Position numbers and translations under genes: made by a program | Shown: positions 47,724-63,893 of the stretch, piece after piece | Position numbering within the stretch: position 1 is the first letter of the stretch | Layout: each line of letters begins with the position of its first letter | Notes under the pieces: model-generated | What the model was told of the DNA's origin: nothing | What the model saw: only the letters and a program-made list of their open reading frames with translations | Databases searched by the model: none | Origin: Hyphococcus sp. | GTDB taxonomy: Bacteria > Pseudomonadota > Alphaproteobacteria > Caulobacterales > Parvularculaceae | Length of the DNA: 64,000 bases | Assembly (NCBI GenBank): GCA_028289605.1 | Contig: JANQON010000016.1 | Coordinates: forward strand, 62,001 to 126,000 | Direction: 5' to 3'

Positions 47724-48238
47724 ATGAAAGCTGCTGAACAGCGCGGAGATAAGACGAAGAAGAAACCGGTCATCGACGCAAAAGCCGCCGAAACAGTCAA
47801 ATTGGTCTTCAAGCTATTTCTTGAAGGTGATGGCGCCGCCGGGCCGCTTGGCGTCAAACATATTGCAAAGTGGTTGAATGCCCGCGGATATAAAACACCT
47901 ACAGGAAAAGCGTTCTATACGAGCCGTGTCCGCGCGGTCCTGATCAGCGAAACCCATGCAAGAACAGCATTGTTCAATCGCAAAGACACAAAGACGGACG
48001 AAATACTGCCACGTCACGAGTGGATTCCATACGCGGTTCCGCAAATCTAAAGCGACGTCGCATACAAGCGCCGGCCGATTTAAAGAAACAACATACCCGC
48101 GCATTCGTCTCTGAAATCATCGTCGGTAAGTCTGAAATTGTGATCTCAGGACCCAAAAATGCACTCGCAGAAGCTATCGCGGGCGAGCCGCTAACACACC
48201 TTGCCGCCGCTTCAGGACCGGTTCGCAGTTTGGCATAG
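47724..48238 (+). pseudogene. decayed serine recombinase
   Basis: The first part (47724-48050) reads AAETVKLVFKLFLEGDGAAGPLGVKHIAKWLNARGYKTPTGKAF, the recombinase domain of large serine recombinases. A frame change then occurs around 48048-48080, and the second part (to 48238) reads KKQHTRAFVSEIIVGKSEIVISGPKNALAEAIAG, the C-terminal end. The resolvase catalytic domain is absent upstream. The disrupted frame and missing domain show a pseudogene. Confidence 0.75.
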
Positions 48239-49178: not shown

Positions 49179-49679
49179 CAGAAGATTTGAATTATCTGTA
49201 CCCGCTCGCTGATGGAAAACAGACATAAAGCTACGCGTATCGTTCGATTGCAAGCGCTCGATTTAATATGAACTCTCCAATGATTCGTGTAAGCGAAGCG
49301 TGATGCGCCATTCATACTGAAAGGGCGCGTTACGCCCGCATTCCAGTTGACTGCACTGCTGTTGAGCAACCGCATTTGCTAGCTACACGCAAAAACCGGC
49401 GAAACGTTACACTTCCAAAGTGCTCGAGCTGCGATCCGTTTCTGGGAGGCGGTAGCATCAATTTGAGCATTTTTTTGCCCCTGTTTGGTCGCAACAAGAA
49501 CACCCGCATCTAGCTCTGAACGGAATGGTCTGTCGAGCCGCCCGAATTTCAGTTTTTGGAGGTAGCGCAGGTGATTATTTTGAGAAGTGGTCGACTATAC
49601 TATCAAAAACAAAAATAGTCATCTATATATTAGCCATCGTGTTGTGTTTAACTTCGCAATTGAAAGTGGGAGAGAGTTC
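49179..49679. other. intergenic, 501 bases
   Basis: No gene with a ribosome-binding site is visible; frames are short. It contains the second GCCCGAATTTCAGTTT (49540-49555), which precedes the next gene by 125 bases. Confidence 0.4.
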
Positions 49680-50468
49680 ATGGGCGAGCAAGAAAAAGAT
49701 AGGCTTGAATTTCAAAAGATGCTGATAGATGACCTATCACAGCACCGAAGTTACATTCAGCAACTCTATCGAAATGCAGCTATCATAGTAGGGGTTGGGC
49801 TTGGTGTTGTGGGCACTGCCGCAGTCTTTGTTTTGGGTGATACCTTAGAAAAAGCTGTGGCTGCATTTGGAATAGACGGCGCCATTGATACTGCACTCGA
49901 GAAAAAGTTTGATGTTGCGACCACAAACCTGACAAATCGCGCAACTGAGCAAGCGTCAGCTATTCTAGTCGATATTGAAGAACAAGCAGTTGAGGCAGCG
50001 GCTTCTGCGATGCGAGACTTTGTGGCTCGCGAATTTGACACACAGGCAAAAGAGGCAATTAACCGACAAGCGGTGCTCATAGGTTCCGAAACAATTGATC
50101 AAACGGTTGCTCGGTTAGCAATTCCTTCGAGCGCGATACTGTCGTTTGCGCTGTCAGATAAATGTCCAGACGGATGGAAAGAATATGAACCCGCTTACGG
50201 GCGCTTTATTCGTGGTATCGACCTCGGTACGGAAAACACTGATCCGGAAGGAAAGCGGAGCGCGGGATCGATTCAGGGTGACTCGATTATTGCTCACGCT
50301 CACAGTTTTAGCTATCGGGCGTTTGGGCATGACTTAAACGACGGCGGATTGCCCAACAAGTCAGAAGACAATGATGGTCGCCCCATCAGTTCAACAACGT
50401 CCGATTTCGGTGCCGCTGAAACTCGACCTAAAAATGTGGCGCTTCTGTTCTGTCAACAAGCGGGATAG
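49680..50468 (+). CDS. membrane-anchored protein with phage tail-collar-like C-terminus
   Basis: A 262-aa protein from ATG 49680 with GGGAGAGAG upstream. A membrane helix (AAIIVGVGLGVVGTAAVFVLGDTL, residues about 37-60) follows a short cytoplasmic N-terminus, then a long alpha-helical stalk (TTNLTNRATEQASAILVDIEEQAVEAAASAM). The C-terminal 85 residues (CPDGWKEYEPAYGRFIRGID, GSIQGDSIIAHAHSF, ETRPKNVALLFCQ) are the tail-fibre/collar tip fold of phages. A phage-derived tip on a membrane stalk is unusual; it may be an adhesin or an anti-phage decoy. Confidence 0.7.
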   Translation: MGEQEKDRLEFQKMLIDDLSQHRSYIQQLYRNAAIIVGVGLGVVGTAAVFVLGDTLEKAVAAFGIDGAIDTALEKKFDVATTNLTNRATEQASAILVDIEEQAVEAAASAMRDFVAREFDTQAKEAINRQAVLIGSETIDQTVARLAIPSSAILSFALSDKCPDGWKEYEPAYGRFIRGIDLGTENTDPEGKRSAGSIQGDSIIAHAHSFSYRAFGHDLNDGGLPNKSEDNDGRPISSTTSDFGAAETRPKNVALLFCQQAG

Positions 50469-50766: not shown

Positions 50767-52518
50767 ATGTCCGAATTGCTGGTGCTCGGCTGCTCTAGCC
50801 GCAAGACGAAAACGCCGGGCGAGACCCCGGCAGTGCATCGCTATGATGGCCCCCTCTATCAGGATTTTCGTACGCGCCTGCGCACCCACTACTGGCCCGG
50901 CGACCTCGACGTTGCTGTCCTCTCGGCTGAATACGGTATGATCGGCGCGCTCACTGACATCGCCGACTATGACCGACGAATGACGACGGAACGTGCCAGC
51001 GAGCTCGCACCGGCGATCAGCGAAGAGGCGGCGTCCTGGCTGGGCACTTATGACCGCATCAATCTATGTCTTGGCAAAGACTATCTCGCCGCTCTGCCGG
51101 CCACATATCTTGAGCAATCCGGCAAAGTGGACCTCTTCAAAGGCCCGATTGGCATCAAGCGCCAGCAACTCGGCGCCTATCTTCGATCAATTGATGCGAT
51201 AGAGCGCGAAGCGTTCAGCGCGCAGCCAAAGGGACGGCTTCAGTATTTTCTGCCAGACTGGGACGATCTCATTGACCCTGATTTCGATTTCATCGCCGAT
51301 CAGTTTTCCGGCCCGAAATCCGAACGCGCCGATATCCATTGCGCGCGGTTGATGCGGCCATTCAAGATCGCCGACGGGATTCTCGTCAGCCTCGCGCAGA
51401 AACGCGAAGCCAAGGGACCGCTAAAATATGTGGGCGGGCTTGAGTCGCGGACCATGCGCCCGATTGACCTGAGAGCCCATTACGGGCTCAATCGAACACA
51501 AGCGCTCTTCGGCGATTGCGGCGCATTTTCTTATGTAGACGAAGACAAACCGCCGATCAGCGTCGATTACGCGGTCAGCCTCTACGACCTCTATAACTTT
51601 GATTTCGGTGCCAGCGTCGATCATATTCCGGTGCCGGTCATCCGCGTCGGAAACGAGAAAGTGGAGCTGACGAAGCGCCAACGACAGCGGCGCGTCAAAA
51701 TCACTGTTGAAAACGCCGCCGGATTTCTTGAGGCAACAAAGCGCCGTAAGGCGAGCTTCGTTCCGGTCGGAACAGTTCAGGGTCTAAGCACAGATCAGTA
51801 TGTCGAGAACGCTAATCTCTACGCCTCGATGGGCTACCGGCGGATCGCGCTTGGCGGATTGGTCCCGCTGCCCGACGATGTTGTCTTCGATATCGTCTCA
51901 TCAACAATGGCTTCGCTGAGACAACGAAAGAACCCGCCCGATGTTCACCTCTTCGGCGTGTTCAGGCCGAAACTGCAGGCGAAGTTTCGAGGACTAGGCG
52001 TGACCAGCTTCGACAGCGCTACTTACTTCCGCAAAGCATGGCTTCGTTCGGAGCAAAACTATTTGGCCGAGAATGGTTCTTGGTATGCTGCGATCCGCGT
52101 GCCAATGACATCGGACGGGCGCACACGGAATACGCTCCTCAAAGCGGGGCATGACCTGGACAAACTGGCGGCTCTAGAAGCGGCTGCACTTGAAGCCCTG
52201 CATCGGTATGCGAAGCGCCGCGTATCGTTGAAGGCGACATTATCCGCCGTCATTGAGTATGACAGCAAGCTTGATCGCTCAAGCGAAGACAGGTCCAAAG
52301 TCGCTGCACGCTACGAGCGCACGCTAAAGGATCGTCCATGGGAGCATTGCCCGTGCCCAATCTGCAAGAAATCGGGAATCGACGTATTGATCTTCCGCGG
52401 GTCGAACCGAAACAAGCGTAGAGGAACGCACAACACTTGGCGCTTATACCAAGTGACACGCACCGCCAAGCGCATGTCATTTGAGGCGGCGTTAGGTAAC
52501 GAGACGAAGAACCAATAA
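50767..52518 (+). CDS. dpdA: DpdA-like transglycosylase (TGT family) with N-terminal DUF6884-like domain
   Basis: A 583-aa tRNA-guanine-transglycosylase-family enzyme of the DpdA type, which swaps guanine in DNA for a 7-deazaguanine (preQ0). Residues 1-145 resemble DUF6884 (LLVLGCSSRKTKTPG). The TGT barrel follows: FGDCGAFSYV (D250), ASVDHIP (D285), PVGTVQGLST, ALGGLVPLP, HLFGVFR and SFDSATYFR, whose D416 corresponds to the nucleophile Asp. The zinc site is CPCPICKKSG with His in RRGTHNT (CxCx2Cx22H). RGSNRNKRRGTHN is typical of DpdA. It starts the DpdA-helicase-nuclease-QueD module. Confidence 0.85.
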   Translation: MSELLVLGCSSRKTKTPGETPAVHRYDGPLYQDFRTRLRTHYWPGDLDVAVLSAEYGMIGALTDIADYDRRMTTERASELAPAISEEAASWLGTYDRINLCLGKDYLAALPATYLEQSGKVDLFKGPIGIKRQQLGAYLRSIDAIEREAFSAQPKGRLQYFLPDWDDLIDPDFDFIADQFSGPKSERADIHCARLMRPFKIADGILVSLAQKREAKGPLKYVGGLESRTMRPIDLRAHYGLNRTQALFGDCGAFSYVDEDKPPISVDYAVSLYDLYNFDFGASVDHIPVPVIRVGNEKVELTKRQRQRRVKITVENAAGFLEATKRRKASFVPVGTVQGLSTDQYVENANLYASMGYRRIALGGLVPLPDDVVFDIVSSTMASLRQRKNPPDVHLFGVFRPKLQAKFRGLGVTSFDSATYFRKAWLRSEQNYLAENGSWYAAIRVPMTSDGRTRNTLLKAGHDLDKLAALEAAALEALHRYAKRRVSLKATLSAVIEYDSKLDRSSEDRSKVAARYERTLKDRPWEHCPCPICKKSGIDVLIFRGSNRNKRRGTHNTWRLYQVTRTAKRMSFEAALGNETKNQ

Positions 52519-52592
52519 CCACAGGCCTGCTAACTATCCGCCGCGGGCGTCAATCTTTGGTGAAAAATTTAGCGGGCGGCCCGTACCGATGA

Positions 52593-55106
52593 ATGACAGG
52601 GCCAGCCCGAACGGAGAAAGATCAATTGAGTTGGACATGCACACGGGAGACTTTTTCTGAAATAGCTCCAGCCGTCTGTGGTGTGACGGTAGACGCTGCC
52701 GTTGCAGGTGATCCAAATCGTGAAGATCCTAATCAGAAATCGATAATTTCAGCGCCCTTGAATGAATCGCTGTTTGTGATTGCCGGGCCGGGAAGCGGCA
52801 AAACGACATCCGCCGCGCTAAGGCTGTTGAAGCTTGTGTATGTCGACGGTGTCGAACCCGATGCTGTCTTTGCGACGACATTTACCAGAAAAGCGGCCGC
52901 CGAGTTGAGGTCGAGGATCATTTCTTGGGGTGAAGGGATGCGGGATGCTCTGAATACCAGAGAACCAACGCGTCGAGATGATTTCGATGCGCTGGACCTC
53001 AATAAAATGATGATCGGCACACTCGACAGTCTAGCGCAAGAAGTCCTGAATGATCATAAGCGCGCAGGCGATCCACGGCCGGCGCCAGTGGAAGAACATA
53101 TCCTCAAATCGCTTCTCCTTACACAAGGGATTTTCCCCTCATCGATCAGCCGTACCCACCGGCGTGCAGACGATCATGCGACAGGACAGTTTCTACGAAA
53201 TTTTTATGGCCGCGAATGGAGTTCGGACCCAGGGCGCGCGACGGCTTTGGTCGAGATTCGACAGCGCCTCCAAAATGACCGAGTAGACCAAGGGCAGCTT
53301 CTGGCGGGACTTCAAGGATCGCCAGATCATCAACCGGTACGAGCGATTCTAAATGTCGTGAACGGATTCGACGACTTTATGCGTGATGCCCAAATCTATG
53401 ATTTTTCGTCGATCAATATCACGTTCCTTGAACGGCTGGCGAATAATACGCTTGAAGACTTCTTGACAAATATAAAATTCGTTCTTGTCGATGAATATCA
53501 AGATACGAATTACTCACAAGAGTCGGTATATTTTCAACTTGCACAGGCAGCGGCTCGCAATGGCGGCTCAATAACCGTTGTGGGTGATGACGATCAGTCT
53601 CTGTACCGGTTTCGAGGTGCGACTGTTGAGTTATTTGCTGGTTTTGAAAACCGCATCCACAATCGAATTGGCGTAACTCCGCGTCGTGTAGCATTGAACC
53701 GGAGCTACCGTTCAACGACAGACATTGTCGACTTTGTAAATCAGTATTCTGTGCTTGATCCTGGTTACCAAGCAGCGCGCGTGTTGAACAAACCACCGCT
53801 TATCCATGGCGACGCCAACACTCAGCGATTTCCAATTTTTGGGATCTTTAGAGACAGTGAACAGGCGGTCGCCGAAGCAATTGCGCAATTCACGGCCCGG
53901 TTAGTGTCTGGACAGACGATCTCGGTTCGATCTGGAGGCATCAACCACAACCTTCGTCTTGATCCCGCCGACGGGTCGGCAGGCGATATAGCGGTGTTGA
54001 CGTATTCAACAGGCGAATATGGCGACCGTAAACCTGACGGCAGACCAGGACGAGAGCGATTTCCACTCAAGCTTCGTGACGCCCTCGAACAGCAAACACC
54101 GCCAGTCTCCATTTTTAATCCTAGAGGTCGTCCACTACGTGACATTCCTTCGGTACAAGAACTGTTGGGAAATATTCTTGATTGTCTCGACCCAGATGGT
54201 CTTGCGCTTGACCGTATTCAGGAACGCTACGATGAAAATGGTGACTTCAGTCCGAGATATGTTCAGAACGCGACGACGCTTTCCGAATGGCGAAATGTCG
54301 CGAGAGGAACTCGCGACTCTCGGTCCCCGGAACTTGCAAGATTCGTAGAAAATTGGGGGATACGTACGCCAACACGACGGATCACGGCAAGGCGCGCCCG
54401 GGTCTCGCTAAATGATATTATCTTTAAGTTAATCAAGTGGCTGCCGAGCTATCAGACAGATATTGAGCATTTGGCTTGGCTCGAGGCTGTTCAACGTGCA
54501 GTGACGGCATCAGCGGTCCTGCAGGGCTTTGCTGGTGATGTCTTATTTGTGCCCAATCAATTTGATGATGAGTTATCAATTAGAAGCGTCATGCACGCCT
54601 ATCAGCGCGTACTCTTTCCGATTGCAGAGGACCTTATAGAGGTCAGCGAAGATGCCTTGGAAACATTGCCACGCGACCGTCTCAACATCATGACGATCCA
54701 TCAATCTAAGGGTTTGGAATTTCCTATTACTATAGTTGATATCGGAGCTGCGATGCAGGACTTGCGCTGGATGCGACCGCGATCTCGCTTTCCAACCGGA
54801 CCCGATACCGTCCATAAGCTAGAGTCGTATTTTCGGCCGTACTGTGACATCGGCCTACCAGCCCGGGATGGATTAGATCGTGCGTTTGACGACCTAGTCA
54901 GGAACTACTTCGTCGCGTTTAGTAGAGCACAAGACGTATTGATTTTAGCGGGGCACACGAAATGCGTTCGCCGTCCGCGAGGGAATGCAAAGCCAGGTCA
55001 ACACGTCGGTGCGGGTTGGTGCCGTCCTGACAATCGAAATCCAGACGGGTCTTGGCCCTGGGAGGGGATGGGCCATCTCGTGTTGATAGAGGATTCCCAC
55101 CTATGA
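52593..55106 (+). CDS. UvrD/Rep-type SF1 helicase
   Basis: An 837-aa ATP-dependent superfamily 1A DNA helicase. Walker A is VIAGPGSGKTT (residues 62-72). FTRKAAAELRSRI is motif Ia, VLVDEYQDTN motif II, GDDDQSLYRFRGA motif III, LNRSYRST motif IV, MTIHQSKGLEFP motif V and YFVAFSRAQDVLIL motif VI. The start at 52593 is tentative. Its stop overlaps the nuclease start (ATGA), so the two make an AddAB- or RecB-like processing pair. It is coupled behind dpdA at 74 bases, so DNA handling linked to modified or unmodified sites is inferred. Confidence 0.88.
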   Translation: MTGPARTEKDQLSWTCTRETFSEIAPAVCGVTVDAAVAGDPNREDPNQKSIISAPLNESLFVIAGPGSGKTTSAALRLLKLVYVDGVEPDAVFATTFTRKAAAELRSRIISWGEGMRDALNTREPTRRDDFDALDLNKMMIGTLDSLAQEVLNDHKRAGDPRPAPVEEHILKSLLLTQGIFPSSISRTHRRADDHATGQFLRNFYGREWSSDPGRATALVEIRQRLQNDRVDQGQLLAGLQGSPDHQPVRAILNVVNGFDDFMRDAQIYDFSSINITFLERLANNTLEDFLTNIKFVLVDEYQDTNYSQESVYFQLAQAAARNGGSITVVGDDDQSLYRFRGATVELFAGFENRIHNRIGVTPRRVALNRSYRSTTDIVDFVNQYSVLDPGYQAARVLNKPPLIHGDANTQRFPIFGIFRDSEQAVAEAIAQFTARLVSGQTISVRSGGINHNLRLDPADGSAGDIAVLTYSTGEYGDRKPDGRPGRERFPLKLRDALEQQTPPVSIFNPRGRPLRDIPSVQELLGNILDCLDPDGLALDRIQERYDENGDFSPRYVQNATTLSEWRNVARGTRDSRSPELARFVENWGIRTPTRRITARRARVSLNDIIFKLIKWLPSYQTDIEHLAWLEAVQRAVTASAVLQGFAGDVLFVPNQFDDELSIRSVMHAYQRVLFPIAEDLIEVSEDALETLPRDRLNIMTIHQSKGLEFPITIVDIGAAMQDLRWMRPRSRFPTGPDTVHKLESYFRPYCDIGLPARDGLDRAFDDLVRNYFVAFSRAQDVLILAGHTKCVRRPRGNAKPGQHVGAGWCRPDNRNPDGSWPWEGMGHLVLIEDSHL

Positions 55107-56311
55107 CGCTGCATGTGAGAAGTCCTGATCATAAGATACCCGAATACAGCCTGACCGGCGATCTGTTGTCTTATCTAAAGTGCCCCCTGCAGTATCGGAT
55201 GTATAATCGTGGCAAGCTTCCGCCATCTGTGCCCGTTCAACAATGGTTTGGCGAGTTTATTCACGGGTGCATGGAAGAAGCTTATGCGCGATGGCTGGAT
55301 GAGGATTGGGGAGACTTCCCACGCACATTCCCATGGAATTGGGACGAACACCTTCGATCCATAGAACTCGCAATTTTTAATCGCTTATTGGCGCGAGGAC
55401 TGCCGCCGCCTCCCGGTCTACTTTACCAACTTGAGCGGCGCGAATACGAGAACGCAACCGAAGATGATCGTGGTATCGCAAGCAAACGGCTTGAAGTAGC
55501 GGTCAATTCGTGGGGCTCGCATTTGTTTCCGCTCATAGAAAAAGCGGAAGTGCGTTTACTCGGGTCAGTCGCTATGCCTCCGGCGACACAGTTTCGAGCG
55601 ACACGATTTTCGGTCACGGGCATCGTCGATGTTTTGAGTTCCGTTCGGCTACGAGAGGCACCGGGCAATAACATCATTATCCGTCGCTTACGTGAAAACC
55701 CGCGCATTCGAGAAGCGATGGACCAAAGCGCAGAACCCTTCGATATCATCATTGACTATAAAGGCATGCGGCGTCCGCCGATTTCCGATCCCTCATGGGA
55801 GCACCAAGCTTGGCAAATCCAAATGTATGCTTGGTTGCGGAGACGTCAGGAACCAAACCGGCGTGTTCTGGCGGGCGTTTTACTATATTTGAACGAATTG
55901 CTTCCGTCCCGAACGGATATGGAACTGCTTGCGCATGATGTCGGGGAAGAAGATACCGACGTCATGCCGAACGCGGTCGATATCCAGCAGATCACGCAAT
56001 ACATGTCGCCAACGCAGCGTCCGGATGACATCATCCTCGAAGAGGAAAAACTGCCAGCGGAACGTGCTCTTACCATGCCATTCAGGGAGGACCGGAGTTT
56101 TCGCCTTGTCGAAGTGGACGACGCTTCACTTCAGCGTTCGGTTACAGAATTCACTGGCGTCGTGTCAGAAATCGAAACCGCCGTTCAAACTGAAATACAA
56201 AGCAGTGATGCGCGTAACGGCTGGACGCCTCGGCGCGATGACAGAACCTGTGTTGCCTGTGATTTCAAATATCATTGTCCGGAGCGCGGGGATGATCCAA
56301 AAATACCTTAG
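55103..56311 (+). CDS. PD-(D/E)XK nuclease, Cas4/AddB-like with Fe-S cysteines
   Basis: A 402-aa nuclease of the RecB/Cas4 branch. The N-terminal motif is TGDLLSYLKCPLQYRMYN (C27), then GEFIHGCMEEA (H54), TGIVDVLSSV, FDIIIDYKGMRR (the D...DYK core) and WQIQMYAWLRR. The C-terminal Cys cluster CVACDFKYHCPERG with C27 would form a 4Fe-4S cluster. The ATG overlaps the helicase stop. It probably cuts or trims DNA with the helicase and is the effector candidate of the module. Confidence 0.85.
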   Translation: MTLHVRSPDHKIPEYSLTGDLLSYLKCPLQYRMYNRGKLPPSVPVQQWFGEFIHGCMEEAYARWLDEDWGDFPRTFPWNWDEHLRSIELAIFNRLLARGLPPPPGLLYQLERREYENATEDDRGIASKRLEVAVNSWGSHLFPLIEKAEVRLLGSVAMPPATQFRATRFSVTGIVDVLSSVRLREAPGNNIIIRRLRENPRIREAMDQSAEPFDIIIDYKGMRRPPISDPSWEHQAWQIQMYAWLRRRQEPNRRVLAGVLLYLNELLPSRTDMELLAHDVGEEDTDVMPNAVDIQQITQYMSPTQRPDDIILEEEKLPAERALTMPFREDRSFRLVEVDDASLQRSVTEFTGVVSEIETAVQTEIQSSDARNGWTPRRDDRTCVACDFKYHCPERGDDPKIP

Positions 56312-56364
56312 CCAATCCTTGATCATTTCCAACGGTATTCGACACACTTCCGAGGTTATATACT

Positions 56365-56940
56365 ATGGAGCTTAATTTTACGCGCCGGTTTTCAATGGCC
56401 CATAGGTTGCTGCAGAGCGGATCAGAAAAGTGCGAAGTACCACACGGACACAATGAACTTGTCACAGCGCGGCTTGCCTATATCGGTGCGCAACCGCTTA
56501 GCCCTGAGTCTAATATCGCTGCTGACTTTACCGATCTCAAAACGGATTGGCATCGCTGGATCGACAAAAGCGTCGACCATGCCTTCCAGTTGGGACTTGA
56601 CGATCCATTAATCGGCTACTTCAAAATCCACGAGCCGCAGCATCTGTCGCGGATATTGGTTACGCCTGGCGATCCCTCAACGGAATGCCTTGCGGCGTTG
56701 CTTTTGTGCAAGTATCAGTGTTTCCTCGCGGCCGTAGACGCACCGTTTGAAGTCTCGTCCATCGAATTGGTCGAAACGCCAACAAATACCGTCGAAATCA
56801 ATAAAACAGACCTTGCGTTGTTTCCGGCACTGTCTAGCGATGGATGGTGGAGACGTCCCGACATGTCGATCAACGATTTCGAACTTGAGAATAATCAGGC
56901 GGCGTCCCGGAGCGAAAAGGCGTCTTTGACGTCCGCATAA
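56365..56940 (+). CDS. QueD-like 6-pyruvoyl/6-carboxytetrahydropterin synthase family protein
   Basis: A 191-aa QueD/PTPS-fold protein. Zinc ligands are FSMAHRL (H13) and CEVPHGHN (H27, H29), the catalytic Cys is C23 and the catalytic Asp-His pair is VDHAF (D71-H72). QueD makes 6-carboxytetrahydropterin in preQ0 synthesis. QueC, QueE and FolE are not nearby. Its presence 53 bases after the nuclease gene ties the module to 7-deazaguanine chemistry. It is longer than typical QueD (about 120 aa) due to insertions and a C-terminal tail; its 3' end overlaps the convergent HAD gene by 46 bases. Confidence 0.85.
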   Translation: MELNFTRRFSMAHRLLQSGSEKCEVPHGHNELVTARLAYIGAQPLSPESNIAADFTDLKTDWHRWIDKSVDHAFQLGLDDPLIGYFKIHEPQHLSRILVTPGDPSTECLAALLLCKYQCFLAAVDAPFEVSSIELVETPTNTVEINKTDLALFPALSSDGWWRRPDMSINDFELENNQAASRSEKASLTSA

Positions 56941-57602
56941 GACTTTATGACGCGATCAGCATCTTGAGCACCAAGTTCGAATTCCCATGAGGGCCGGAAG
57001 CCGCCAGGAAAGTAGAGAGTGGTGAACCCCGCTTCTTTCGCCGGCGTGATGTCCCGATCAAGTTGATCGCCAACGCAAACCCTTGGGCAGGCGTCGCCGC
57101 TTCGTTGGTAGAGATCGTTGAAGAACGCGCGGTTCTTTCGCCCAATTACAAGATCCGAAACGAGCGCATCCAACTTGTGCGTATCTAGATTATCGCGCAG
57201 CCGATCCTCTCGGCCTTCGCTGGCGACGATGATCTCGACGCCCGCGTCGTTCAGCCATTTTAGCGTCGCTCGAACTCCGTTTCTCAGTCTCGGCTTTTGA
57301 GCCAGCACGTCGAAATAGGATGCAACGATTTCATCGATCAGCTTGTCGCTCAACGCTGCAGCGCCAAGTGCATCGACCAGCGCCTGTACCAGCAGAACCG
57401 GCGGATACTTGAGTCCGGCCTCATGTCGTCGCGCAATGTCCTGGTCAAACTGGCGCACGAAAGCGAGACGGTCCCGGCGATCGGTGTTGGCGCCGACGCT
57501 AGCTTCGACCTGTTCGAGAATCGCGAGTTGGGCGTCCGCGAACACTTTGTTCGTGTCCCAGAGGGTGTTGTCGGCGTCAGTGACGAGGAATCCCTGTGCC
57601 AT
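56895..57602 (-). CDS. HAD-superfamily hydrolase
   Basis: A 235-aa haloacid dehalogenase-like phosphatase. Motif I is VTDADNTLWDT (DxDxT), motif II IIVASEGRED, motif III the Lys in IGRKNRAFF and motif IV CVGDQLDRDITPA. The cap is helical (residues about 20-105). The substrate is unknown; nucleotide or sugar phosphates are typical. The GTG/ATG start at 57602 is 3 bases after the neighbouring unknown gene's stop, so they are an operon pair convergent with queD. Confidence 0.85.
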   Translation of the reverse strand: MAQGFLVTDADNTLWDTNKVFADAQLAILEQVEASVGANTDRRDRLAFVRQFDQDIARRHEAGLKYPPVLLVQALVDALGAAALSDKLIDEIVASYFDVLAQKPRLRNGVRATLKWLNDAGVEIIVASEGREDRLRDNLDTHKLDALVSDLVIGRKNRAFFNDLYQRSGDACPRVCVGDQLDRDITPAKEAGFTTLYFPGGFRPSWEFELGAQDADRVIKSYADVKDAFSLRDAA

Positions 57603-57605
57603 GGC

Positions 57606-58685
57606 CTAACGCTCATAGATGGCGAGGACGTTCATGTCAGTCCCCGATTTTAGCGTCGCCACCACCCGGCATCCATATTTGTATCCCCGGTGTACGAAAT
57701 TATAGCCAAAGACGCCGGCATGGGCCTTGCCCGCGGGAACGACGTGCAAGTGACCCGTTGATCCGTCGTCGTCGAAGAGAACTCGAAAATCGATCCACCC
57801 GATACGGCCGGGGCTGCACGCTTTTTCCAGTTCCTGCATGGCTACGCGCGATTTGAAGTTCTGGCTCACGGCGCCCCAATAAGCGGCACGCTTGTCTTTG
57901 TCATTGTCGTCATAGCGTGGCGTCGGGTTTTTCGAAGCCAAGAGTTTTTGGTCGAGCGCCGGGAAAATCGGCCGAAAGTCACCGTCCTCCATCTCTGCAA
58001 CAGTCGGAAAGAGCGGTGCACCCTTGCGAATGTTGACGAACACAAGCGGCCGGGGCGGTGAGTTAAGCAGCTTGTCGAGCTGTTCCGCCGCTAACTCGCC
58101 TTCGAAGTTGGAGAACTGACCCCCGGGTACATCGACAAAGAGAAGGCGTTCGGGAAACTCGGATAGATATTCCACGACCAGATCATTGATCTTCCGTTCG
58201 CTACTTTCGACCGGTTTGCCTTTGACGACATTGCTCTCTTCGTTCTCTCCTGTCCGCGCAATGCTGCCCTCCAATGCAGCTTTCGCTTTGAGCTTTGGGC
58301 CAAGCCAATCAATCAGATTAGGGAGCTTAAATTCAGCCTCGCCTTCCGCTTTGGCGACTCCTTCCAGCGCGGTCGTTACCCTTTTAAAGCTAGTTTTCTC
58401 GACATATTTCTCTTCAAATTCTGGCCAAACAACAGCGTCATGGATGCGTCGAACGAGATCGTCATCAACGAATAATGACGCATCCGTGATCCACCAGAGC
58501 CGGCCGAGATTTTGCGATCTTTCTTCTACATCCAAGGCAGAGTCCTCCATCTTAAGCAGGCTAGCATTTTTTGAACGGGCAGCCCAAGCTTTTAGAGCGA
58601 TTCTGATCACCGGTTTTGCTCGCGCGGTGGATTTTCGGATGAATGGGCAAAGCGGACTTTTGTTTTTCAAAGTGAACCTGTTCAT
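57606..58685 (-). CDS. conserved hypothetical, operon partner of HAD hydrolase
   Basis: A protein of up to 359 aa that I do not recognise. The reliable part begins near LGRLWWITDASLFVDDDLVRRIHDAV (about residue 60); the first 45 residues before an internal ATG (58550) are Lys/Arg-rich and may not be translated. Other visible segments: EYLSEFPERLLFVDVPGGQFSNFEGEL, RPLVFVNIRKGAPLFPTV and TGHLHVVPAGKAHAGVFGYNFVHRGYKYG, a mixed alpha/beta pattern. No signal or membrane helix is seen. Confidence 0.65.
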   Translation of the reverse strand: MNRFTLKNKSPLCPFIRKSTARAKPVIRIALKAWAARSKNASLLKMEDSALDVEERSQNLGRLWWITDASLFVDDDLVRRIHDAVVWPEFEEKYVEKTSFKRVTTALEGVAKAEGEAEFKLPNLIDWLGPKLKAKAALEGSIARTGENEESNVVKGKPVESSERKINDLVVEYLSEFPERLLFVDVPGGQFSNFEGELAAEQLDKLLNSPPRPLVFVNIRKGAPLFPTVAEMEDGDFRPIFPALDQKLLASKNPTPRYDDNDKDKRAAYWGAVSQNFKSRVAMQELEKACSPGRIGWIDFRVLFDDDGSTGHLHVVPAGKAHAGVFGYNFVHRGYKYGCRVVATLKSGTDMNVLAIYER

Positions 58686-59072: not shown

Positions 59073-60188
59073 ATGGCTAAATCAACCTCTAAGAATGACG
59101 AGCTAGTCTTACGTTTGCGAGCCTATGGATTGCCGGTGCCGGCCAGCGAGTTATATGTTTTTTTGCTAACACAAGGCGCATCAACGCGTCAGAAGATCCT
59201 AAGAAGCCGAGTAGTCGCCTTCGACGAAATTCAGCCAAGCCTTTTCTTATTGTCGCACTTGTTTCTTGTGGCGAAGCAACAGTTTCGCGAAAAGGAGCGG
59301 TACTACGCTGTAGATCCGCAGATCGCATGGAAATGGCAAGAGTTTAGACAGGTCTGGGATGTTTTAAAGGAAATTGTGCCCACGGGCTCCAAACCTGCAT
59401 TCAAGGACGCGAAAGACGAACGCAGGGTCTCAATCATTAGGGACATTCGAGAACGAACGTCGGACTTCTTTGAACGAAGCCCCTTCAGTTGTGTTCGCGG
59501 GGGTAGAGGAAGGCCGCAATTCGACGAGGGCGATTATGCTCACGTGTGCGCAGAAGCAATCTCTTTGGCGTCGAAGCGCTTTGTGGCGGTTGATCGTCCA
59601 CCCAATGATACTGCGTCGCTACCAATTTTTTGGTCAGCGATCACGGAAAGAAGGAAAAACGGCGTTTTCTATGACCGGGTAGTCTCGATAGAAGAGGCTT
59701 TCCATCATGGTTTAGATATTGTTGAGCGAGACGTTAATGACATTGGTATCGACATATATTTTGCAGACCACAAGCTTTTTAAAAACACTTACTACGTGGT
59801 CGACGACTACTGCGCGATCATTAGAAATGAGGACCGGAGCGATCAAATTGTGAGTCGTATCACATACGACAAAGGCAAGATTCAACGACTACTTAGACAC
59901 GCTACTCAGCTCCAAGGCCAATGTGTGCACGCAAGACAGCTAATTGATTCCCTGCGATCATACGCGGCAAAACGCATTTCAGAACTGCCTAATCTCACGG
60001 TCGAGGAACGCGACTCCATCAGCAAGATCATTTCAATGGGTAAGTTTGCAGATTTGAGGGGCGCGAGCGATGATCTGCTTGCTTCACTGGTTGCAAGAAA
60101 GCTCGTTGCACCTCTGGATGAAGGTTTTTCGCTGAACATCAAGAGTCACAGGGGGCAAGGTCTAACCTGGTTGCCGTCTTATCAGTGA
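59073..60188 (+). CDS. TrmB-like HTH protein
   Basis: A 371-aa protein. The N-terminus (VLRLRAYGLPVPASELYVFLLTQGASTRQKILR, residues about 12-44) resembles the winged helix of TrmB-like regulators, with a following coiled segment. The C-terminal part has ERRKNGVFYDRVVSIEEAFHHGLDI and VVDDYCAIIRNED, reminiscent of the PLD-like sensor of that family. It is a transcription regulator candidate for the converging operon it overlaps by 27 bases, or for the divergent pair. The assignment is tentative. Confidence 0.5.
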   Translation: MAKSTSKNDELVLRLRAYGLPVPASELYVFLLTQGASTRQKILRSRVVAFDEIQPSLFLLSHLFLVAKQQFREKERYYAVDPQIAWKWQEFRQVWDVLKEIVPTGSKPAFKDAKDERRVSIIRDIRERTSDFFERSPFSCVRGGRGRPQFDEGDYAHVCAEAISLASKRFVAVDRPPNDTASLPIFWSAITERRKNGVFYDRVVSIEEAFHHGLDIVERDVNDIGIDIYFADHKLFKNTYYVVDDYCAIIRNEDRSDQIVSRITYDKGKIQRLLRHATQLQGQCVHARQLIDSLRSYAAKRISELPNLTVEERDSISKIISMGKFADLRGASDDLLASLVARKLVAPLDEGFSLNIKSHRGQGLTWLPSYQ

Positions 60189-61127
60189 TATTTGGGTGCA
60201 AAATGACACCAGCAGTGCGAATGCGGCAGCGACACGCAGCACTGTGTCCCAATCAAAACCGACCAAGAAAATAGTAATAGCCAAAAGAGGACCGACCCAG
60301 TGTCCAATCTCTTCCGCGAGATCCATCTCAGCCTCGGGGCCGCCCAATCTGTGGATGCAGTAAACCGTCCCTCCTCCTAGCCCAGTCGCGACCCACAAGA
60401 TAGTCGAATAGCCATTGGCGGTATCGCTTGACATTAGCAACAAAACTGCGGCGACGAACACATGCCCCAACGACAACGTCCTCGAGTAGTTTACTTTCCC
60501 AAAGATGGGTTCGACTGCCAAGTAAATGATCCATCCTGCGGCGAACGCTGCACCGACAGCCGCCAGCGGGATATTGTCTTTCTCGTGCAGGATCCACGCT
60601 ATCCCATAGGCGTATAGGAAGTAATGGATTTGATGAAACACCATAACTGTCGACATAAAAGACCACTGGCGCTTTTTTACAGGTTGTCGCTTTTTGAGCA
60701 TTCGAAAATTACTATGGGCTCCTAGCAAGATTGCACATAGTATCCATCCGAACAGCGCTATACCAGGGATATAGAAGAGTCCTCCAACAACAAATCCAAG
60801 AACACGATACGTCCGTTTTGTCAGTACTCTGGACCCATCCTGGTAATGCCCGCGAACATATTGAAGGTTTTGCGCAAGCGAAGCAAACACCGGTGCGAGA
60901 TATAATCCACTGTTGAGTAGAACGGCTGCAAGGACAAAAGATAATTCGAACAGTCTTTGACAGACCGGATACGGTCTCGCGTATTTGGCGAGCGCATTTC
61001 CTATTTGCCATGAGAAGCCATACAAGAGGCCAAGCCAGGGCAAGCCCTCGGCTATGCTCAATGCAAGTACAAGCGCTCCACACTCGAAGATGCCAGTACA
61101 AAGCGACAGGAGCAGGTACCTGTTCAC
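60162..61127 (-). CDS. multi-pass membrane protein, possible transporter
   Basis: A 321-aa protein with about ten hydrophobic segments (LLLSLCTGIFECGALVLALSI, GLYLAPVFASLAQ, VLGFVVGGLFYIPGIALFGWILCAILLGA, VGAAFAAGWIIYLAV, ...FALLVSFCTQISLI). It resembles half-size MFS/permease proteins but no motif fixes the family. Its start overlaps the end of the phosphoribosyltransferase gene (ATGA), making it the last gene of the radical SAM operon. Export of the operon's product is a reasonable guess. Confidence 0.6.
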   Translation of the reverse strand: MNRYLLLSLCTGIFECGALVLALSIAEGLPWLGLLYGFSWQIGNALAKYARPYPVCQRLFELSFVLAAVLLNSGLYLAPVFASLAQNLQYVRGHYQDGSRVLTKRTYRVLGFVVGGLFYIPGIALFGWILCAILLGAHSNFRMLKKRQPVKKRQWSFMSTVMVFHQIHYFLYAYGIAWILHEKDNIPLAAVGAAFAAGWIIYLAVEPIFGKVNYSRTLSLGHVFVAAVLLLMSSDTANGYSTILWVATGLGGGTVYCIHRLGGPEAEMDLAEEIGHWVGPLLAITIFLVGFDWDTVLRVAAAFALLVSFCTQISLIRRQPG

Positions 61128-61798
61128 ACCGTCCTCTTGGCAACCCCAAAGGCGGCGCTGTCAAGTTCAGCCCAATTTGGATGTTCAGGGGTCCAGCCTC
61201 CTTCAATAAATTCTCTGATCAGTTGGCGTACTCGCTCTGAGAAAACGCCAACGTTAGCGGCTGCGTCCAGAAGTTCGGAATAGGTTCCGCAATAGCCAAA
61301 GACTCTTTCATCTTCGCGCCAGTGAGATGGCGAAAGTTCGCGCATATCGATTATCGAGTAGTACCCAACGACCTCTCCGCCCTGACGCCTCACGTTTTCT
61401 TCGAACCCACGGATTGATTGCCCAGTCCAGATTGCGTCCTCAATGACAACGACCTTACAGCCATCGACATCTGCCCCCCGAGTTCCAGGCTCATCTTTGA
61501 CGTGACCTTTGTAACCGGCTTTACGAGCGTACGCGAACTTGAACCCGTCGTTTATCGCCATTGACGCTGCGAGAGGTACACCAGCACTTTCGGCGCCAAC
61601 AACTACCTCCGCTGCGACGCTTTTTGCGAATTTGGAAGCGTGTTTGGAAATCTCAAGCCAAACTTCTTTCTCGGCATAGATGTTCTCGAGAAAGATCGGC
61701 TTAAATGGAAGAAGAACCTCGCCATCGAACTCCGTGATGCCGGGCTGGAACATGTTCTCTACTGAAGCAATCGCTTCCACAAGCATAAATCGATCCAT
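61124..61798 (-). CDS. orotate phosphoribosyltransferase-like PRTase
   Basis: A 224-aa phosphoribosyltransferase. The PRPP-binding loop KVVVIEDAIWTGQSIRG spans residues 115-131 and VVVGAESAGVPLAASMA (about 66-82) matches the OPRT nucleotide site. A flexible catalytic loop may be KAGYKGHVKDEPGTRGAD. The start is either ATG 61798 or TTG 61807. It differs from housekeeping pyrE by company: two radical SAM genes and a membrane protein. It may attach ribose-5-phosphate to a modified base or heterocycle. Confidence 0.8.
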   Translation of the reverse strand: MDRFMLVEAIASVENMFQPGITEFDGEVLLPFKPIFLENIYAEKEVWLEISKHASKFAKSVAAEVVVGAESAGVPLAASMAINDGFKFAYARKAGYKGHVKDEPGTRGADVDGCKVVVIEDAIWTGQSIRGFEENVRRQGGEVVGYYSIIDMRELSPSHWREDERVFGYCGTYSELLDAAANVGVFSERVRQLIREFIEGGWTPEHPNWAELDSAAFGVAKRTV

Positions 61799-61812
61799 TT
61801 TACCCAAGCACC

Positions 61813-62757
61813 TTACTTCGAGTCGTGATACAGTACTTCATTCAAGCGTAGGCGAAGGCCATGTTTTTCAAGCAATTCAGGAATGATAGCCTGCAATTCC
61901 TCGCGATGTTCTTTGTGCTTTGCGCCGTTGTACAGATCCTGAATCTCGCTGGAAGTCTTAGCGATCTGTGGATTGAGACGTTCCTGAATATACTTCTTCA
62001 TGTTGATGTGCTCAACGAATACGGTTTGCACTCCCGTATCTGCGATGGCGGCGAAGAGATCATTGAGTTCATCATGCGCGAATTTAAAGTGTGGAAGTAA
62101 AGGGCCGACAAAGGCATAGGTATTGACTCCCGCATCATGCAATCTACTCAACGTGTTCAGCCGTCGGGTCGCATGAGGTGCTCGTAGTTCCAAGAACCTG
62201 CTGATTTTATCGCTAGTTGTTGTGATCGTCATTCCGACTGTTGCGTTCTTTATCGACGACAGGTGATCCAGATCGCGAAGAACCAAAGGTGACTTGGTCA
62301 GAACCTCAAAGCGTCCCTCGAATTCAGAGGAAGCGACAACTTCAAGTATGCCGCGTGCCAGTTCATACTTTTTCTCAACACCTTGATAGGCGTCCGTCAC
62401 GGAACTCATCAAAAGAGTGGGGTGCCCACCTTTTGCGATAATCTTCGGAAAGTCTTTTTTGAAAAGGTCAACAGCATTTGTCTTCACCGAGACATAGTTG
62501 CCCCATTCCGAGATGTCTTCGCCGATGTATTTTCCCATGAAGCTGGCGTAGCAATAAACACAGCCGAACTCGCACCCGGTGTAAGGATTAACAACGTAGT
62601 CCGCGTCTGGCAGCTTTGATGGAACAATAATTGATTTGGCTTCAACTTCGGTCAGCCGCATTTTTTTGACCTTTCTTGATTTCGCACCGTTCGTGCTTGT
62701 ACGGTAGGCGGCGAGAGTGGCCGAGTACCTATCCTTGACGGTGGTTCCGCCGATCAT
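61813..62757 (-). CDS. SPL-family radical SAM protein
   Basis: A 314-aa radical SAM enzyme. The 4Fe-4S motif GCEFGCVYCYASF has C62, C66 and C69 (CxxxCxxC), and YVVNPYTGCEFGCVYC with VLTKSPLVLRDLDHL fits the spore-photoproduct-lyase-like group. It lacks the SPL C-terminal lyase Cys as far as I can see, so it is not assigned as DNA repair. The ATG overlaps the stop of the upstream radical SAM gene (62754-62757). Confidence 0.82.
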   Translation of the reverse strand: MIGGTTVKDRYSATLAAYRTSTNGAKSRKVKKMRLTEVEAKSIIVPSKLPDADYVVNPYTGCEFGCVYCYASFMGKYIGEDISEWGNYVSVKTNAVDLFKKDFPKIIAKGGHPTLLMSSVTDAYQGVEKKYELARGILEVVASSEFEGRFEVLTKSPLVLRDLDHLSSIKNATVGMTITTTSDKISRFLELRAPHATRRLNTLSRLHDAGVNTYAFVGPLLPHFKFAHDELNDLFAAIADTGVQTVFVEHINMKKYIQERLNPQIAKTSSEIQDLYNGAKHKEHREELQAIIPELLEKHGLRLRLNEVLYHDSK

Positions 62758-63893
62758 TCTGCTGCAACCTTTGACGCGCTATAATGGCTTGCATACAGCG
62801 GGTCACTTATGTCGAACGGGCGATCTTCGACCCGATTACGTTTTGAGTTGAGCGCCGCAAAAATTTTGCACTGACCAAAGTTCTCATTTGACCGTTTCAT
62901 GAAGGATTGCGCCTTGTTGGTCGACAACAGATCCCCAAGCGTATTTTTTGCAAGATTGCCAAGCGTCCAAAAATCATTGAGTGCCTTGCCATGCTCGTTC
63001 ATTGCCCACGGCGAAGCCAATAGAGTTCCGTCAGCCATGAGGCCAAACGATTCTACACCAAGGTCACATGGATTTTCGTGGGGTGCTTCGGCCAGACCTT
63101 CTTGAACCTCGATGTTTCGAAGAGCGCATTGAAGTTTAACTGCCGGGCCATTCACGCTCTGCTCAAGCTCGCGAAACTTTGTAATGGCGAAGACATACTC
63201 TTCGCGTGTCGGAACGTGTTCCGGTTCAAGCTTGCCACGACCGACCGGGAACTGACGCATGATCAGCAGTTTGTCGACCCCTTCATCTGCGAGACGCATG
63301 TAGAGACGCTCCATATGGTCAGCATTGATGGCTGACCGTGCGAGAGGAAACTCTGCCCGTACTGAAACTCCTGTGGCTTTAATCTTGCGCGCAAGCAGCA
63401 GATTTAGATCCGCGTATCCGTTGGAACGAACTTCCGCGTCGTCTGGGGAGGCGGCGTTGAACGTAAAGTTGAACTCGCTAATGCACCCTGCCACTCCCTC
63501 AAGATCCTCGGGAATGTTCATGCCAGTGATAGTCAGTGTGACATTCTCGCGGCCCAACTTTTCGGCGTACGCCTCAAGCAGTGCGCGGCCATCTGGAACA
63601 ATCAGCGCATCTCCGCCTGACACATCCACACGCACATTGAAGTCACCAAGGTGCTCGATAACCTTCAGCTTTTGGCTGAAATAAAGCTCTTCACCTGTGG
63701 CTTGAAGCTGACGTTGGGCCGCAGCATACCGACATTCGCCAGGTACCGTTGCAAGCGGTTGGTGCGATCTCAGGTCGGGGCTCCAAAGCTTCGAAGCAGT
63801 AGCCCAAACCGCAGCGACACAGCACTCAGGGCAGTTAAATCCACAAACACGCGTGTGATTATGGATTAGGTCAATCTTTTTTGGCATCATCAT
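62754..63893 (-). CDS. radical SAM protein, MoaA-like N-terminus
   Basis: A 379-aa radical SAM enzyme starting at one of three tandem ATGs (63893, 63890, 63887) after GGAGAAG. The cluster is VCGFNCPECC (C17, C21, C24). VDVSGGDALIVPDGRALLE is the SAM-binding GGE-like motif (GGDA). Later Cys in CALRNIEVQ, NPCDLGVESF and FGQCKIFAAL could bind a second cluster (SPASM-like). Substrate unknown. It is the first gene of a tight four-gene operon: rSAM, SPL-rSAM, PRTase, membrane protein. Confidence 0.82.
   Translation of the reverse strand: MMMPKKIDLIHNHTRVCGFNCPECCVAAVWATASKLWSPDLRSHQPLATVPGECRYAAAQRQLQATGEELYFSQKLKVIEHLGDFNVRVDVSGGDALIVPDGRALLEAYAEKLGRENVTLTITGMNIPEDLEGVAGCISEFNFTFNAASPDDAEVRSNGYADLNLLLARKIKATGVSVRAEFPLARSAINADHMERLYMRLADEGVDKLLIMRQFPVGRGKLEPEHVPTREEYVFAITKFRELEQSVNGPAVKLQCALRNIEVQEGLAEAPHENPCDLGVESFGLMADGTLLASPWAMNEHGKALNDFWTLGNLAKNTLGDLLSTNKAQSFMKRSNENFGQCKIFAALNSKRNRVEDRPFDISDPLYASHYSASKVAAE

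Follow-up and report, generated by a model that had tools for sequence, protein, structure and literature searches.

Gene content of the locus

The stretch analyzed here, referred to as the window, comprises 64,000 nucleotides of a Hyphococcus sp. contig (JANQON010000016.1, positions 62,001 to 126,000; G000:C10:62001-126000 in our own numbering, in which G, C and L stand for genomes, contigs and loci) and belongs to a genome of 4.29 Mb in 19 contigs. It carries a gene for the transglycosylase DpdA fused to a DpdC-like domain, followed on the same strand by genes for a UvrD-type helicase, a PD-(D/E)XK nuclease and a QueD homolog (Table 1). A preliminary description, made from the letters of the window, had joined these four genes into a possibly undescribed module for 7-deazaguanine DNA modification and defense. 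All four reading frames were open at the positions it gave, and the nuclease start lies on the helicase stop in an ATGA overlap at 55103-55106. Its family assignments for the helicase, nuclease and QueD also held (UvrD-helicase, E value of 6.6e-45; PDDEXK_1, 5.8e-12; PTPS, 7.5e-16). The gene set is real and recurrent.

Table 1. Genes and domains discussed, in window coordinates unless a locus is named
Feature	Position	Strand	Length and evidence
DpdA protein (DpdC-like/DpdA fusion)	50767-52518	+	583 amino acids, open reading frame
DUF6884/DpdC-like N-terminal domain, residues 1-150	50767-51216	+	DUF6884 match; CSSRK and LSAxxG motifs
DpdA transglycosylase domain, residues 158-583	51238-52518	+	NF041059, 7ui4; D250/D285/D416, C-x-C-x2-C...H
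Superfamily 1 (SF1) UvrD/AddA-type helicase	52593-55106	+	837 amino acids, PF00580
PD-(D/E)XK nuclease, AddB/Cas4 type	55103-56311	+	402 amino acids, PF12705
QueD/PTPS paralog, accessory	56365-56940	+	191 amino acids, PF01242, phrog_2389
HAD-family hydrolase, convergent with queD	56895-57602	-	homologs end rhizobial dpd operons
Short TGT-like protein	L004:6159-7082
Short TGT-like protein	L007:6190-7137
Short TGT-like protein	L048:11484-12392
Short TGT-like protein	L070:6442-7413
Short TGT-like protein	L082:17734-18654
Short TGT-like protein	L097:10592-11491
Short TGT-like protein	L106:8068-8982
Short TGT-like protein	L107:15390-16403

The DpdA protein and its N-terminal domain

The NCBIfam DpdA model NF041059 matched residues 158-563 with an E value of 5.7e-105, and the PADLOC DpdA profile agreed (4.4e-100). 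The sole close sequence in the PDB was the DNA-guanine transglycosylase 7ui4 (E value of 5.8e-71, query residues 156-562), in which D250, D285 and D416 and the C-x-C-x2-C...H site align to identical residues; we take the former to be catalytic and the latter to hold zinc. The aspartates and zinc site of a tRNA-guanine transglycosylase (TGT), as reported in the preliminary description, are thus supported by both the family model and the alignment. An AlphaFold2 model from a 13-row alignment (predicted local distance difference test score, pLDDT, of 80) also had 7ui4 as its best PDB match (E value of 1.8e-32; template modeling [TM] score of 0.55 by query length), with tRNA enzymes ranked after it at 9.7e-11 or worse. 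Within the window's phylum, 3 of 398 genomes had DpdA, as did 1 of 149 nearer relatives; both counts include the own genome. A viral scan with a single DpdA sequence as the query yielded nothing useful.

Residues 1-154 matched Pfam DUF6884 with an E value of 1.3e-5 and 25.8 bits, below the curated value of 30, and residues 1-150 also matched YaaA weakly. The DUF6884 motifs CxxxK and LSAxxG have been described (PMC11701544), and both are retained in the aligned window domain, the first as CSSRK. An iterated hidden Markov model (HMM), built over the open reading frames of the collected loci, linked this domain with standalone DUF6884 proteins and with DpdC genes, namely those of L005, L006 and L009 and a matching gene of L010 (E values of 5e-7 to 1e-17). 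PADLOC labels the L005, L006 and L009 genes DpdC (1.3e-63 to 6e-142), and its DpdC profile also matched the domains of L004 and L014 (4e-11 and 7e-7). The window domain is placed with DpdC at the level of a superfamily, through the iterated HMM and the kept motifs, with no direct PADLOC DpdC match. The L014 domain also matched DUF5591, an ArcS domain, at 4e-5, below the cut-off; a DpdC query against PDB sequences yielded nothing useful.

The DUF6884 domain stands at the N terminus of DpdA in the window and in L004, L007, L008, L082, L091, L097 and L107, and at its C terminus in L098-L100 and L108-L111 (with Pfam confirmation on two of the fusions in L097-L100 and L107-L111). A standalone DUF6884 gene lies directly upstream of the helicase in L011, L014, L072, L075, L023 and L090. 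Fusions at either end tie DUF6884, a family of unknown function, to DpdA. We also observed a 13-kb virus-like contig (L103, IMGVR_UViG_3300002925_000073) with a standalone DUF6884 gene and DpdA and no helicase-nuclease pair, where self-protection by the mark alone is possible. In eight loci a second, short TGT-like protein of about 300 amino acids lies beside DpdA or the pair (Table 1), and in L004 and L007 its gene stands between two DEAD helicases.

The helicase and the nuclease

The GPGxGK, DExQD and GDDDQ stretches of the helicase are invariant across 12 aligned helicases, and no nuclease-domain match was found on this protein. The addA_Gpos model scored 119.3 bits on it, short of its cut-off of 707.65. 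In the nuclease, C27, C383, C386, C392, D176, D218 and K220 are invariant in 22 aligned rows. Its structure model (pLDDT of 82) had as its best PDB match the AddB chain 4cei_B (E value of 4.1e-6), followed by an AddA chain (1.2e-4), with TM scores of 0.4 or less by query length for both; the Cas4-family protein ACE1 matched at 1.7e-4 with a TM score of 0.64 by target length, and the cas4 model TIGR00372 fell below its cut-off (17.4 against 65 bits). A nuclease query against phage records yielded nothing useful. We infer from their adjacency that the two proteins form a split AddAB-like pair; like AddAB they combine an SF1 motor with an AddB-type nuclease fold, and unlike AddAB they place motor and nuclease on separate, shorter proteins.

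Occurrence of the pair with DpdA

DpdA and the pair recur together in Alphaproteobacteria, a cyanobacterium, Chloroflexota, a Bacteroidota metagenome-assembled genome (MAG) and several archaeal groups. The neighborhood survey proposed in the preliminary description therefore found the helicase and nuclease with DpdA beyond close strains and across phyla, and this recurrence fits a modification/restriction module. Nuclease matches occurred in 3 of 72,556 plasmid records, all three with an adjoining helicase and with dpdA within about 10 kb.

A nuclease scan of genome contigs gave 160 relatives; among the best 80, most came from Methanobrevibacter or allied genera, and the stretches fetched around them contained no DpdA. 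DpdA was searched for in 39 of these 80 genomes, comprising all 16 labeled as non-Methanobacteriales and 23 others, 3 horse-gut archaea among them; Methanovirga and Methanorudis were assumed to belong to Methanobacteriales. DpdA was found in 12 of the 16 (L010, L011, L012, L014, L017, L018, L020, L027, L072, L075, L081 and L082), that of L012 being a truncated piece below the cut-off, and the contrast with the phylum of the window (3 of 398) is descriptive because different taxa are compared. The near-identical scores of L072 and L075 may mean a single species, which would leave 15 independent genomes instead of 16. Nine of the 12 positive genomes had DpdA inside the fetched locus together with the pair. 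In L017 and L020, DpdA was found on separate contigs, next to pair genes belonging to it (L098-L100); in L027 it shares the contig at a distance of about 24 kb, provided that the two records have the same orientation. The 23 other genomes gave no DpdA, or weak matches below the cut-off only. The Methanobacteriales loci among L015-L089 held no DpdA, nor did any match exceed the cut-off in those of their genomes that were searched. The idea that the pair always needs DpdA was accordingly rejected, since Methanobacteriales and others have the pair or the nuclease without it.

The reverse search used a profile built from eight pair-linked DpdA proteins. Counting the seeds, it matched 3 viral contigs and, in the phyla to which the genomes of L011, L072 and L014 belong, 5 of 400, 1 of 292 and 5 of 344 genomes, respectively. 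After the seeds (G530, G533, G562 and L104, the last identical to L091) and two loci with a broken or partial TGT gene (L112 and L113) were left out, the pair lay within 10 kb of DpdA in 5 of 8 intact loci (L105, L106, L108, L109 and L110). The L105 contig had already been recovered in the nuclease scan as L090, and L108 and L110 are close kin. The pair is strongly diverged in L105 and L109, and likewise in L098 and L100. Two different helicase-nuclease pairs lie on the L090/L105 contig (IMGVR_UViG_3300006094_000039, 86 kb), both directly preceded by a DUF6884 gene or fragment; DpdA adjoins one of them.

A DpdA tree of 19 rows (L007, represented by a 29-amino-acid piece only, was excluded, and L100 formed a long branch) placed the six DpdA proteins with DpdB in their operon or genome on one side (support of 100/99). 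The window DpdA fell in a group of eight (97/96), all eight beside a helicase and seven with a nuclease seen; in L099 the contig ends inside the helicase. This grouping is not independent of sampling, because most rows were collected through the nuclease. In the nuclease tree, the four Methanobacteriales rows included formed one nested clade (100/99, midpoint root). The sister of the window nuclease was that of Bradyrhizobium mercantei, and the sister of the window DpdA was that of L091.

Relation to classical dpd genes

The preliminary description had seen none of the classical genes dpdB to dpdK. This was not quite right, because a DpdC-superfamily domain is fused onto DpdA, and it held for DpdB and DpdJ, which gave no match anywhere in the genome in a search of the Dpd profiles that it had also proposed and in which DpdA did match. 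The PADLOC DpdB-K profiles matched none of eight window proteins (for the helicase, among the best 25 of 50 matches); for DpdD-K this negative covers those eight proteins, dpdD-I and dpdK not having been searched genome-wide. Over 16 genomes, the DpdB profile gave strong matches in three positive controls (G322, G248 and G529), a weak one in G1486 (1.5e-4), and none in the own genome or in 11 others. DpdJ was sought in 17 genomes: it was near full length in G322, G248, G565, G546 and G895, the first two serving as positive controls, and partial in G562, G1506, G1486, G1395 and G1476, and it was not found in the own genome, G529, G530, G533, G536, G537 or G890.

In Rhizobium WYJ-E13 and Bradyrhizobium 41S5, the order dpdC-dpdB-dpdA-dpdB-queE-queD-queC-...-HAD has the pair upstream, and the pair-bearing records of these two genera gave no DpdJ or DpdD match. 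Agrobacterium vitis shares this operon, with dpdD, dpdK and dpdJ located downstream, and gave no match to the nuclease. It is possible, judging from these arrangements, that the pair replaces dpdD/K/J. Among 17 plasmid records with dpdA, 10 had DpdJ, 3 the pair, none both and 4 neither, and the chance of no overlap is about 35/680 by hand arithmetic. DpdD matched five plasmid records, none bearing the pair.

Comparison with published systems

The module is not wholly undescribed. The 2017 study of phage 9g (PMC5567051) noted, as data not shown, a helicase and a Cas4-like nuclease next to tgt genes, counted helicase/Cas4-like proteins among the most frequent nucleases there, and suggested a restriction role for the phage pair; these are the same kinds of genes and the same functional guess as here. 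The pair may well be present at two loci that it names, from M. aeolicus and D. thermolithotrophum. Phage 9g itself had no homolog of the window pair among open reading frames of at least 100 amino acids in its first 50,000 of 56,702 bases, and identity of the two pairs was rejected for that part. Its helicase is annotated as superfamily 2, unlike the SF1 helicase of the window.

The locus shares with the classical islands (dpdA-dpdK) the DpdA active site, a DpdC-superfamily domain, a gene for the preQ0 (7-cyano-7-deazaguanine) pathway nearby and the HAD gene common to rhizobial dpd operons. It differs in that its genome has no DpdB or DpdJ match, the DpdC-like domain is fused to DpdA, and the helicase and nuclease are of UvrD/AddB type. 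A GATOR-GC survey of dpd islands required dpdAB (PMC11888242). Fusions of UvrD and Cas4 in restriction-modification loci (PMC5704561) likewise set a UvrD helicase and a PF12705 nuclease beside DNA-modification genes; as described, most of them unite both parts in one polypeptide and accompany Mod/Res or Dcm/Vsr, which sets them apart, and the words "queuine" and "tRNA-guanine" are absent from the main text. The Dpd hybrids BRIGADE and BRC (PMC12458937 and PMC12839542) also join deazaguanine modification to other effectors, but these are YprA helicases, or HerA/FtsK with PglZ, and the window genome has no match to DpdJ, of the YprA family. Our literature search returned no paper describing a UvrD/AddB-type pair together with a DpdC-DpdA fusion, and we make no claim that it is unpublished.

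A candidate Dpd variant

Taking together the observed gene content, fold families, active-site residues, fusion, recurrence and lack of DpdB and DpdJ matches, we lean slightly toward a Dpd-type restriction-modification variant without DpdB and with a split AddAB-like effector, its function being read from gene context. The compact variant proposed in the preliminary description thus survives in its pairing of DpdA with the helicase and nuclease, and not in its inclusion of QueD or its novelty. In the variant that we favor, DpdA would swap guanines in the cell's own DNA for preQ0, supplied by the host route, whose output the extra QueD may raise. In cis, the fused DpdC-like domain could act on the inserted base, turning nitrile into amide to give 2'-deoxy-7-amido-7-deazaguanosine (dADG), or might instead grip DNA. 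The UvrD-type helicase and the Fe-S PD-(D/E)XK nuclease would form a complex that unwinds and degrades DNA without the mark, a task that falls to the DpdD-K genes in classical islands. We infer DNA as the substrate, the chemistry of the N-domain, complex formation and restriction of unmarked DNA. As a rather unlikely refinement, the deazaguanine mark written by the DpdC-DpdA fusion might be a chemical, genome-wide counterpart of Chi: the motor would load at DNA ends, unwind and degrade, and be switched off or turned back at marked bases, and destruction would be limited to linear DNA without the mark, which is foreign.

Several observations weigh against this proposal. In Methanobacteriales the nuclease is found without DpdA, in most cases accompanied by the helicase, and 4 of the 16 non-Methanobacteriales nuclease genomes lack DpdA (L013, L023, L048 and L070, all MAG-like; the L023 contig stops just past the nuclease). 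In the reverse search, no pair was found within 10 kb in 3 of the 8 intact loci (L103, L107 and L111), L103 being weak evidence because its contig spans only 13 kb, and the broken-TGT loci L112 and L113 were also without it. Pair and DpdJ are not strictly exclusive, because G565 (L082) and G546 (L027) hold both, and three genomes of the phylum of G533 have DpdJ-like helicase matches near DpdA and the pair. Among the plasmid DpdJ matches, 6 of 10 cover 31-53% of the query at 25-28% identity, the other 4 being near full length. Sinorhizobium americanum has the operon and neither the pair nor dpdD/K/J in 25 kb, and the possible replacement is not a one-site swap, because dpdD/K/J lie downstream in A. 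vitis and the pair upstream in rhizobia. The PADLOC DpdC profile does not reach the window's own N-domain. Finally, the nearest relatives of the window DpdA and nuclease differ, and writer and degrader therefore seem, from their trees, to reassort.

The strongest alternative, which we consider rather unlikely, is that the pair is an AddAB-like repair or resection machine for breaks or intermediates of base exchange, at a locus that modifies without restricting. The closeness of the nuclease model to AddAB chains speaks for it, as do the pair without DpdA in Methanobacteriales (where L026 and L055 share downstream neighbors by eye) and DUF6884 with DpdA and no pair in the virus-like L103. Such a machine should not be sporadic, however, as DpdA with the pair is within the phylum; rhizobial dpd operons occur in the company of the pair or of dpdD/K/J, and the four Methanobacteriales rows of the nuclease tree form one nested clade, under midpoint rooting only.

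We consider it improbable that the locus marks in order to destroy, with DpdA tagging invading DNA, or resembles a Type IV system, with the pair attacking deazaguanine-modified phage DNA. Pair and DpdA do co-occur and phages with deazaguanine DNA exist (PMC6884629), but DpdA, if expressed constitutively, would mark the DNA of the host itself, and the dpd cluster of S. Montevideo is reported to restrict unmodified DNA (PMC5567051). Action of the transglycosylase on RNA, with unrelated island genes as neighbors, is very improbable: the protein belongs to the TGT superfamily and exceeds the Pfam TGT cut-off (30.5 against 26.3 bits, over 121 of 357 positions), but it falls short of the general Tgt model TIGR00449 (18.3 against 47.6 bits), is far closer to the DNA-acting 7ui4 than to any tRNA enzyme, has DNA helicase-nuclease partners recurring in many phyla, and shares its host with a separate full-length Tgt on contig C14 (514.7 bits).

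If the Dpd variant is real, it is a compact form with a predicted two-protein effector, in which two proteins, in place of the dpdD-K set, would suffice to test how marked and unmarked DNA are discriminated. It would show DpdA in a form that does without DpdB, found across bacteria and archaea and sharing a helicase-nuclease partner, and it probably represents a recurring, little-described alternative to known Dpd DNA-marking defense.

Accessory and neighboring genes

QueD, counted in the preliminary description as one of four module genes, lies outside the conserved core. It matched phrog_2389 with an E value of 2.5e-19, its own genome has a better-scoring queD copy with queC on contig C18, and QueD matches among the collected loci were confined to L005, L006, L008 and L010; core membership was rejected on these grounds. 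Searches with it against PDB sequences and by BLAST against the reading frames of the C18 queD locus yielded nothing useful.

The HAD gene shares 46 bases with the end of queD. Its product is 36% identical to that of L006 and 39% to that of L005, with a further match in L010. Matches occurred in five plasmid records, four of them with dpdA within 7 kb (Bradyrhizobium, Rhizobium, A. vitis and S. americanum); the Sinorhizobium fredii record has no dpdA in the surrounding 23 kb. A small gene precedes HAD in the four dpdA-linked records, and orf359 of the window (57606-58685) was rejected as its homolog. In the Bradyrhizobium dpd operon, a PycTM-like gene with two transmembrane segments (L005:16990-17769; PADLOC E value of 7.5e-7) lies between queC and HAD.

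Beyond the HAD gene, a cluster at 60162-63893 on the reverse strand encodes four proteins: one unmatched with a membrane-like start, a radical SAM protein (1.2e-11) with weak SPL similarity (1.4e-5, below the cut-off), another protein whose radical SAM match is weak and under the cut-off (0.0023), and a phosphoribosyltransferase (1.5e-8). Upstream of DpdA, a 293-amino-acid protein (49587-50468, forward strand) has a C-terminal part resembling a phage tail collar (phrog_523, 1.7e-8). Third-position GC is 0.41-0.65 in genes from 48.5 kb on and 0.52-0.73 leftward, and a 108-amino-acid serine recombinase fragment (47724-48050, forward strand; PF07508, 8.2e-10) is perhaps the scar of an island edge.

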